This document shows, one piece after another, positions 61,804-63,454 of a stretch of 64,000 bases of DNA. Source of the stretch: Vibrio fluvialis (GTDB taxonomy: Bacteria > Pseudomonadota > Gammaproteobacteria > Enterobacterales > Vibrionaceae); assembly GCF_900460245.1 (NCBI RefSeq), contig NZ_UHIP01000001.1, positions 372,001 to 436,000 on the forward strand, in the 5' to 3' direction. The notes beneath the pieces were generated by a model. It was not told the DNA's origin. It searched no databases and saw only the letters and a program-made list of their open reading frames with translations. The translations under genes were made by a program, and so were the position numbers. Each line of letters opens with the position of its first letter. The stretch's first letter is position 1.

Positions 61804-61828
61804 AAAAGCGCCTCAGGGCGCTTTTTTT
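61804..61828 (+). terminator. tyrS terminator overlapping the ybaN-like 3' end
   Basis: The stem AAAGCGCC / GGCGCTTT with a TCAG loop is followed by T-run, about 27 bp after the tyrS stop. The right arm lies inside the coding end of the convergent YbaN-like gene, whose stop is at 61813. Confidence 0.88.
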
Positions 61829-62214
61829 GTGGGGTGGTTTGGAGCGATATAGGTTTTTAAGCGCAGGATAAACCAAGTTTCAAACAGCAGCAGTGCTGCA
61901 ATCGCATATTGCCAGTGGGTATTCTGTGCCATGAAATACCACACACTCCCCATGGACAGCCAAATGACGGTCAGCGACTGCCACTTTTCCGCCCGGGTAA
62001 ATCCTTGTTTATGGTGTAACCGCCTAGCCAACGGGCCCAGCCTTTTGTGTTGCAGCAACCATTGCTGAAATCTCGGTGACGATACGCCAAAGCAGTACAG
62101 AGCCAGCAGCAAAAAGGGCACGGTGGGCAGAAGCGGTACGGTGGCGCCGATGGCACCCAGAATCACACAGGTGATACCGACACACTGATAACCTTTGCGT
62201 TTTATTCGGTTCAT
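61813..62214 (-). CDS. ybaN: DUF454 (YbaN family) inner-membrane protein
   Basis: This 133-aa membrane protein has three to four hydrophobic segments and the YbaN signature (LGAIGATVPLLPTVPFLLLALYCFGVSSPRFQQWLL). Function is unknown for the family. The start MNRIKRKGYQC at 62214 gives near-family length (E. coli YbaN 125 aa); ATG at 62241 (MKIIGF) is an alternative and neither has an ideal ribosome site. Its last codons (KKAP-stop) are part of the tyrS terminator stem. Confidence 0.8.
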   Translation of the reverse strand: MNRIKRKGYQCVGITCVILGAIGATVPLLPTVPFLLLALYCFGVSSPRFQQWLLQHKRLGPLARRLHHKQGFTRAEKWQSLTVIWLSMGSVWYFMAQNTHWQYAIAALLLFETWFILRLKTYIAPNHPTKKAP

Positions 62215-62330: not shown

Positions 62331-62339
62331 TGCTACAAT
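62331..62339 (+). promoter_or_regulatory. Extended -10 promoter of the mgtE leader
   Basis: TGCTACAAT (TGn plus TACAAT) is followed by a C/G-rich discriminator (CCCCGCGC). A TTGACT lies 21 bp upstream of the hexamer, too far for a normal -35, but the extended -10 compensates. Transcription would start near 62346, giving a leader of about 260 nt. Confidence 0.6.
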
Positions 62340-62380
62340 CCCCGCGCTGCTTTAAATGCCGCGTAATTTCGGAGACTAAC

Positions 62381-62425
62381 ATGAACAATACCGACCATCC
62401 CCCTAGTATGAAGGGAGAAAAATAA
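62381..62425 (+). CDS. Leader peptide MNNTDHPPSMKGEK upstream of the Mg2+ transporter gene
   Basis: This 14-codon ORF has GGAG 6 nt before its ATG, as good a ribosome site as any gene here. It encodes Asp-His-Pro-Pro early in the chain. Acidic residues and prolines near the N-terminus slow or destabilise ribosomes, and the Mg2+-sensing leaders mgtL and mgtM/mgtP in enterics use similar residues. The end of the ORF (GGAGAAAAATA, 62414-62424) can pair with 62492-62502, so ribosome position would decide the RNA fold. Translation is not shown, only inferred. Confidence 0.55.
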   Translation: MNNTDHPPSMKGEK

Positions 62426-62469
62426 CCCGCTGTTGGTATTGGCTTGTTCGCCCTGCCTGCGCGGTAGGG

Positions 62470-62511
62470 AACCTTTTCTCAAATTCCTCTCTATTTTTCT
62501 CCATTCCTCTA
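62470..62511 (+). promoter_or_regulatory. G-free C/U-rich tract in the mgtE leader (Rho-loading candidate)
   Basis: These 42 consecutive nucleotides contain no G and are rich in C and U, between a 7-bp hairpin and the transporter gene. Rho binds such unstructured pyrimidine tracts. The 3' arm of the long-range pairing with the leader ORF (62492-62502) lies within it, so leader translation could expose or hide the tract. Confidence 0.5.
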
Positions 62512-62608
62512 GTTGATAAGCCTTGGTATGTCACACGTAATGACGTGTGAAACGCTGTTGATGCCTGCTTATCGATGGTCGTTACCTATGCCAATCGGGA
62601 GATTCGCC

Positions 62609-63454
62609 ATGACGGTAATGAACAACTACTACATTGAAAACAATGCCTATTTTTCTCAAGAGGAAATCGGCGCTGCGCGTAACGCATTTTTGCAATACGA
62701 TGAACAAACGCAAGTACATTTGCTGACGGTTATGCCGATTGATGAAGCGGTGGCGATTTTGCACCACTGTTCGGTTGGCTATGTCCAGCATTTGCTGAAC
62801 TTGCTGGATAAAGAAGATCACGATAAACGTGCTCGTCACTATGCCCACCGCTTGGGTTTCATTCACTCAGAGGTGGAGACGTCGCACAGCTATCTGAAGA
62901 CCAGTGTGATGGAGCATGTGAAACATCGTATCGGATGGATCATTTCGCTGGCTTTGCTGGGTATTGTGTCAGGCCTGATCATTTCGCACTATGAAGACAC
63001 GTTGAGTCAGTTAGTATTGCTGGCGGTGTATATGCCTGTGATCGCGGCTGCGGGCGGTAACACTGGCAGTCAGGCAGCTACATTGGTGATCAGTGCTCTT
63101 GCGACGGGCGAGCTTAAAAAGCGGCAGTGGATGAGTGTGCTGTGGAAAGAGAGCCGGGTGGCATTGTGTATCGCATTGGCCATTTCGCTGGTCATGATTG
63201 GCCGCATTCTGCTGTTCAGCGATCCGAATGCGGCTGGGGGATTCAGTTTGAATAGCATTGCGCTGGCGATCGCCATTGCGCTGTTTATTCAAGTGACGAT
63301 CTCAACCACACTGGGCGGCATTCTGCCGATCATCGCCCGGGCTTGTAAGCTGGATCCGGCGGTGTTGGTCAGCCCGGTATTGGCATCGATCGTCGATATC
63401 TCAGGGATGTGGATCTACTTTACTGTCGTGAATCATGTGCTTGGCTTAGGCTGA
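62609..63454 (+). CDS. Short MgtE-type magnesium transporter without CBS domains
   Basis: This 281-aa protein has a soluble N-terminal ~100 residues (a helical part with LLTVMPIDEAVAILHHC, resembling the MgtE N domain) and a C-terminal MgtE membrane domain. The membrane part has five segments beginning at RIGWIISLALLGIVSGL and includes the conserved PVIAAAGGNTGSQAATLVISALATGE. The CBS pair that senses Mg2+ in full-length MgtE is missing. The ATG at 62609 has GGGAG 7 nt upstream; in-frame starts back to 62513 are less supported. It is convergent with dacB, overlapping by 35 bp. Confidence 0.88.
   Translation: MTVMNNYYIENNAYFSQEEIGAARNAFLQYDEQTQVHLLTVMPIDEAVAILHHCSVGYVQHLLNLLDKEDHDKRARHYAHRLGFIHSEVETSHSYLKTSVMEHVKHRIGWIISLALLGIVSGLIISHYEDTLSQLVLLAVYMPVIAAAGGNTGSQAATLVISALATGELKKRQWMSVLWKESRVALCIALAISLVMIGRILLFSDPNAAGGFSLNSIALAIAIALFIQVTISTTLGGILPIIARACKLDPAVLVSPVLASIVDISGMWIYFTVVNHVLGLG

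Follow-up and report, generated by a model that had tools for sequence, protein, structure and literature searches.

The window analysed here, a 64,000-nt stretch of the Vibrio fluvialis genome (two contigs, 4.86 Mb), carries a gene for an MgtE-type transporter (mgtE) whose product is 96% identical to its Vibrio furnissii counterpart. A domain search identified in this protein the MgtE membrane domain (PF01769, E = 2.9e-32), the part it has in common with canonical MgtE proteins (TIGR00400). In contrast to these, it contained no CBS domain, as the initial annotation had said, and no MgtE_N match in the same search, and it scored below the TIGR00400 cut-off. Both MgtE_N and CBS are present in the other three MgtE copies of the genome. 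The 5' neighbours of mgtE are tyrS and a DUF454 gene on the opposite strand, and its 3' neighbour is a Peptidase_S13 (dacB-like) gene; across 61 named loci with flanks of up to 2.5 kb, a dacB match was present in 60, tyrS in 48 and DUF454 in 7. Between tyrS and the DUF454 gene, positions 61805-61831 gave a weak, sub-threshold Rfam match (E = 0.32) to the STnc130 3' hairpin; this segment resembles an ordinary terminator hairpin.

The region upstream of mgtE contains a 14-codon ORF and a set of helices, several of which compete for the same bases (Table 1): P1 and P4 share bases, P4 and P5 share 3 nt, P3 is nested within P4, and P1 and P3 are interleaved. The extended -10 element, the ORF with its GGAG, the 11-nt pairing (P3), the hairpin (P2) and the C/U tract of the initial annotation were all recovered in place. 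Perfect complementarity of at least 11 nt between the ORF and the downstream leader arose in 13/5000 dinucleotide shuffles. Sufficient upstream sequence for a promoter scan was present in 61/73 representative leaders, and the best extended -10 scored 7 or 8 of 8 in 31/61 of these, as compared with 111/1220 shuffles. Its end lay exactly 39 nt 5' of the leader ATG in 36/61, and between -37 and -43 in at least 52/61.

Table 1. Features of the mgtE leader and gene, in positions of the window
Feature	Position	Strand	Basis
Extended -10 promoter element TGCTACAAT	62331-62339	+	from sequence
Leader Shine-Dalgarno GGAG	62371-62374	+	conserved in parsed leaders
Leader ORF MNNTDHPPSMKGEK, 14 codons, D5-x-P7-P8 motif	62381-62425	+	conservation, codon pattern
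P1 5' arm CAATACCGAC, ORF codons 2-5	62386-62395	+	one G-U in pairing with 62432-62441
P4 5' arm CGACCATC, ORF codons 4-7	62392-62399	+	complements 62574-62581 exactly
P3b 5' arm CTAG, codons 8-9, possible P3 extension	62403-62406	+	partner 62509-62512; by eye
P3 5' arm GGAGAAAAATA, 3' end of ORF	62414-62424	+	covariation, swap test
P1 3' arm GTTGGTATTG, after ORF stop	62432-62441	+	swap test, pairing
P2 hairpin, 7 bp	62451-62457/62463-62469	+	double changes in alignment
G-free C/U-rich tract, 42 nt, candidate Rho site, overlapping P3 3' arm	62470-62511	+	
P3 3' arm TATTTTTCTCC	62492-62502	+	perfect 11-bp pairing with 62414-62424
P3b 3' arm CTAG	62509-62512	+	partner 62403-62406; by eye
P7 5' arm, variable spacer stem	62515-62521	+	partner 62567-62573; swap test
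P7 3' arm, spacer stem	62567-62573	+	partner 62515-62521; swap test
P4 3' arm GATGGTCG, 8 bases immediately 5' of mgtE ribosome-binding site	62574-62581	+	complementarity
P5 5' arm TCGTTACC, sharing 3 nt with P4	62579-62586	+	partner 62614-62621
P6 AATC-GGGA-GATT, 4-bp hairpin, mgtE Shine-Dalgarno in loop	62593-62604	+	near-invariant
mgtE Shine-Dalgarno GGGAG	62597-62601	+	sequence
mgtE-type transporter, 281 aa, MgtE membrane domain only	62609-63454	+	domain search
P5 3' arm GGTAATGA, mgtE codon 2 last base to codon 5 first base	62614-62621	+	

To compare leaders we collected 205 records (loci and the window), 200 of which were parsed to give 150 unique leaders. A GGAG occurred 5' of the ATG in 142/143 unique leaders under a strict parse, at 6-nt spacing in 141; the 143-row tables exclude L113 (GTG start), L161, L162, L166, L167, L194, L195 and L059. 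The ORF was 14, 16, 17 or 19 codons long, the differences being whole codons, and in two unique rows a frameshift following Pro8 leaves 11 codons. Codon 8 was CCN in 151/151 (third base T in 108, C in 21, G in 17 and A in 5), and codon 7 alternated between CCT and CCC. Because the parser accepted only leaders with GAC, [CA]A[TC] and CC at the start of codon 7, invariance at these positions is partly by construction; the third base of codon 7 and codons 8-9 were free. The conserved start, the constant GGAG spacing and the free third bases of the Pro-Pro codons indicate that the ORF is very probably translated, as had been proposed. The upstream codons follow a different rule: amino acids change at codon 3 (N/D/T/H) and codon 4 (T/I) while the P1 pairing is retained, by a compensatory change for GAT, a G-U pair for ATC and a bulge for ACT (several rows). 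The 5' codons thus appear to answer to the RNA, and the Pro-Pro codons to the peptide.

Helix conservation was assessed in two ways. In a MAFFT alignment of 62 leaders (restricted to 14-codon leaders and thinned at 93% similarity), double changes were seen in 10/28 pairs of P1, P2 and P3 together, as compared with 4.0 in shuffles, and 92.4% of cells could pair, versus 90.8% in column shuffles and 44-58% with slid partners. By helix, double changes occurred in 6/7 pairs of P2, 1/9 of P1 and 3/12 of P3, the last count being biased upward because rows without a recognised C/U arm had been dropped from the alignment (L038, L056, L058, L113, L121, L122, L170 and L203; L194 was also excluded). The second measure, an arm-swap test on 73 representatives, involved no selection on P3 and ignored kinship; the native partner beat the row median in 46/73 for P1 (z = -9.1), 54/73 for P3 (z = -5.5) and 60/73 for P7 (z = -10.0). 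For P5 it did so in 2/73 (z = -6.3), so that its signal is carried by few lineages, and P4 yields no covariation signal because its ORF-side arm is invariant. The initial annotation had named covariation in the 11-bp stem as a check on its pairing, and P3 covaries by both measures; the pairing is real and belongs, as a single helix, to a more extensive fold.

Individual lineages illustrate these exchanges. Some g9 genomes have CGATACCG/CGGTATCG in P1 instead of CAATACCG/CGGTATTG, an A-U to G-C replacement (L114, L123), and seven further rows carry this type of change with one G-U. P7, which ends directly 5' of the P4 arm and is very variable in sequence, averaged -8.6 kcal/mol as compared with -6.0 in shuffles, with 47/148 past the 5% level. 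By eye, changes in the third base of codon 8 tend to be matched in the downstream tetramer of P3b (TAG/CTA, GAG/CTC), and the P6 changes in L121, L161 and L177 preserve pairing. A duplex search for P3 was abandoned in favour of the alignment and the swap test, as it mixed helices in many rows. P6 (a GGGA loop closed by AATC/GATT) is retained in L194, L195 and L059 despite the loss of P4 and P5.

Two of the helices, P4 and P5, are directed at the mgtE translation start, which is the strongest downstream target in the leader. The core of P5 joins CGTTACC to GGTAATG, which runs from the final base of mgtE codon 2 through codon 4, and 138/150 unique leaders have exactly these sequences. A compensatory change occurs in L225 (genome G375), which has CGTTACT/AGTAATG; L161, L162, L166 and L167 lack TTACC and also have an altered mgtE side (GGTAATA or GGTATTA), and in L194 and L195 both sides are lost. 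P5 is weakened by a mismatch in L174 and L175, by the loss of one pair in L186, and in L112, and L117 was mis-parsed at the P4/P5 site.

In the predicted ribosome-free fold of the window, the pairing probability was 0.93 for P4 and 0.31 for P5, and P5 rose to 0.98 when the P4 arm was blocked and to 0.99 when the P3 arm was blocked; pseudoknots (P1 with P3) and kinetics lie outside these predictions. Across the 73 representatives, blocking the P4 arm raised P5 in 51 and lowered it in 7, and an 8-nt control block placed in the ORF raised it in 30/73. P4 exceeded 0.3 in 42/73 free folds; within this subset, blocking its arm raised P5 in 38. The same block reduced the unpaired fraction of mgtE codons 2-4 from 0.28 to 0.21; accessibility of the whole mgtE start region barely moved (0.44 to 0.45). 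Ribosome-sized blocks on 148 leaders gave a mean P5 of 0.83 at initiation, 0.75 at codons 7-8 and 0.67 at the stop, versus 0.61 in the free RNA, with start-region accessibility at 0.36-0.37 versus 0.39. In the divergent leaders of G157 and G220 an unrelated sequence again supplies a helix that shuts the mgtE start when the ribosome blocks are applied; the free minimum-energy fold of L247 replaces this start-closing helix by an upstream one, the free fold of L246 has no switch, and Shine-Dalgarno accessibility in L246 and L247 is 0.44-0.47 in all states.

The reading we favour, and consider moderately probable, is a leader-peptide RNA switch that acts in cis and controls mgtE expression chiefly through the initiation of translation. 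Ribosomes occupying the leader when Mg2+ suffices would keep P3 and P4 open, and P5 would then shut the mgtE start. Abortion of the ribosome at Asp-x-Pro-Pro, at low Mg2+ or when EF-P or EttA function is impaired, would leave a ribosome-free RNA in which P4, P3 and P7 form, P5 opens and mgtE is translated. We infer that Mg2+ would be the signal and, by analogy with mgtL and mgtQ, that the Asp-x-Pro-Pro chain would cause ribosome drop-off. The initial annotation had likewise supposed that the ribosome on the ORF sets the fold; its ORF, very probably translated, and its pairing, through the covariation of P3, are supported, but the main target, the mgtE start with P4 and P5, had escaped it.

Its own proposal for the output was Rho. 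There, translation of the leader would bare the C/U tract and abortion would form P3 and hide it, so that transcription attenuation would be the principal outcome. The tract does contain the P3 3' arm within its 42 G-free nucleotides, mgtL offers a precedent for Rho control (in the part of PMC11282234 consulted), and, in representatives where the tract could be located, it is richer in C and poorer in G (26% and 11.5%) than the rest of the spacer (18.5% and 21%), although this bias is due in part to the P3 arm. However, the longest G-free run ranges from 13 to 48 nt over the 73 representatives (median 25, versus 17 in shuffles), and a simple scan gave no indication of an intrinsic terminator (2 sites found, 1.8 expected), so that one at the P2 hairpin was also rejected. 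For Rho control, P4 and P5 at the mgtE start would be unneeded. Translational control is better supported because these two helices target the mgtE start, and we regard Rho attenuation as the main output as unlikely; exposure of the tract once P3 is blocked may nevertheless add some Rho-dependent termination in the same direction. Two further readings of the spacer were set aside. Pairing of the tract as an anti-Shine-Dalgarno for mgtE (TCTCC/GGAGA) is possible in Vibrio and is not conserved in g9, where, by eye, tract and ORF end change together and the mgtE Shine-Dalgarno stays constant. Reinitiation after the leader stop is unlikely, with the mgtE start 183 nt away in the window.

What the ribosome reads is best seen in leaders that have diverged. 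In G115, G116 and G117 the leader peptide is MSN(A/T)DNPPSSRGEK; in two of the corresponding leaders (L194 from G117, L195 from G115) P1 is down to 4 pairs, the P4 partner is lost and the P5 partner altered, while P3 is largely retained. The leader of G157 and G220, MQNVDFPPSLNGIGNN, encodes DFPPS with a synonymous Asp codon (GAT), and GGAG is absent from its usual place. In L059 (genome G175) CTG replaces the start codon and D-S-P-P is retained. Asp-x-Pro-Pro thus persists in leaders that have lost P1, P4 and P5, residue 6 being variable (H, N, F, S), and since it outlives most of the helices, the ribosome probably reads this motif.

The same switch could in principle take another input, with the Pro-Pro (and His) codons sensing EF-P activity, proline or tRNA charging. 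The invariance of Pro8 with its free third base would suit such a sensor, as would two reported cases, the response of Salmonella mgtP to charged tRNA-Pro (PMC8092293, in part) and EF-P effects on mgtA (PMC6460261, in part). Nonetheless, Asp5 is kept as well, through a synonymous codon in G157 and G220, residue 6 is free, and the target is a member of an Mg2+ channel family; we find this input doubtful. Direct binding of Mg2+ or another ligand by the RNA, with the ORF incidental, is highly improbable. The fold is conserved and P1 and P3 are interleaved, as a riboswitch might be, but no Rfam family reached threshold and the sub-threshold matches lay outside the leader; the conserved unpaired bases are, by eye, accounted for by the ORF (Pro-Pro codons, start and stop), conservation of the GGAG and ATG equals that of the helices, and Asp-x-Pro-Pro outlives them.

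The leader is widespread in the genus. A degenerate DNA pattern (up to 3 mismatches), which misses differing leaders such as those of G157, G175 and G220, detected it in at least 159/227 Vibrio genomes, as a single copy per genome, and the backwards control pattern had 0 matches in the same genomes. Absence from related Vibrio had been named beforehand as grounds for dismissing the leader, which is thus not refuted. A short MgtE (E <= 1e-60) was present in at least 157/227. With the two genome lists matched by eye, and among the matches listed, 154 genomes had both, 3 (G157, G175 and G220) MgtE without a pattern-matched leader, 5 the leader alone and 65 neither; conversely, 60 of 61 named loci retrieved through the MgtE protein carried the leader, the exception being L059. 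By blastn (E <= 0.01) the leader was found in at least 188/329 genomes of the family and at least 4/13 genera (Vibrio and three other Vibrionaceae), a genus count in which single weak matches, such as that of G174 (missed by the pattern), may be chance, and in which the nine genera without a match were judged almost wholly from blastn. An even sample of the order gave matches in 25/394 genomes, comprising 24 Vibrio and G375 (family f2), as compared with 1/394 for the backwards control. G375 carries a CBS-less MgtE beside its leader (58% identical), and the presence of the leader in just 1/11 genomes of its genus suggests acquisition by horizontal transfer.

The five genomes with a leader and no short MgtE (G102, G186, G217, G224 and G188; leaders L196, L197, L198, L199 and L099) keep the leader and the first 108-134 MgtE residues; by eye, the frame stops at or before the first membrane helix, with the transport domain lost. 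The link between leader and Mg2+ transport is therefore not absolute. When codons 1-85 of L196 and L198 are compared, 23 changes are synonymous and 31 alter the amino acid, as against 33 and 23 in an intact pair (L034 and L022); constraint on the truncated genes looks relaxed yet not absent. In L060 (213 aa) and L226 (about 200 aa) the mgtE frame is interrupted, with the leader in the same genome.

Several Mg2+ transporter genes carry regulatory leaders, among them the RNA leaders ykoK (M-box) and Mg_sensor, whose Rfam models had no match in the mgtE leader. The Salmonella mgtQ leader acts on mgtB, which belongs to a transporter family other than MgtE. In mgtQ, acidic codons reduce translation of the upstream ORF and raise that of mgtB through alternative stems (PMC8092293, in part). 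We regard mgtQ as the best-fitting precedent: the same source describes a short ORF with acidic residues, alternative stems that overlap it and control of a Mg2+ transporter's translation start (PMC8092293); its peptide differs, and the sections consulted note no long-range pairing like P4. At mgtL, in the leader of E. coli and Salmonella mgtA, ribosomes drop off at EPDP at low Mg2+ under Rho control; early acidic and Pro residues and the 5' leader position are shared, and the output (Rho-dependent termination), the peptide and the target, an ATP-dependent importer, are different (PMC11282234, in the part consulted). The mgtM/mgtP leader of Salmonella mgtCBRU resembles ours in placing short ORFs within a long leader, of which one answers charged tRNA-Pro (PMC8092293, in part), and differs in its two ORFs, its target and its transcriptional response to ATP and charged tRNA-Pro. 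The mgtE leader has two traits of the mgtL/mgtQ type, an ORF with a ribosome-binding site conserved alongside a transporter and an early D5-x-P7-P8, and in appearance it is a relative, so far undescribed, of the Salmonella magnesium switches. The literature searched, with subscription papers and preprints outside its scope, held no evident description of a Vibrio mgtE leader, in line with what the initial annotation had supposed.

A broader picture can be offered tentatively, as a possibility that falls short of probable: a switch widespread among Vibrionaceae and without sequence relationship to those of enterobacteria, whose sensor would be an Asp-x-Pro-Pro nascent chain conserved for longer than the surrounding RNA fold; the sensor codons would pair over long range with the transporter start, and Mg2+ control at the RNA level would replace the lost CBS gating of MgtE. 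If true, leader-peptide control by Mg2+ would reach beyond enterobacteria and take in the MgtE family. The natural variants in which P1, P4 and P5 are lost and Asp-x-Pro-Pro is kept separate the function of the peptide from that of the RNA, so that what the ribosome senses becomes directly testable. Control at the RNA level would also suggest a reason for keeping an MgtE without a Mg2+ gate.
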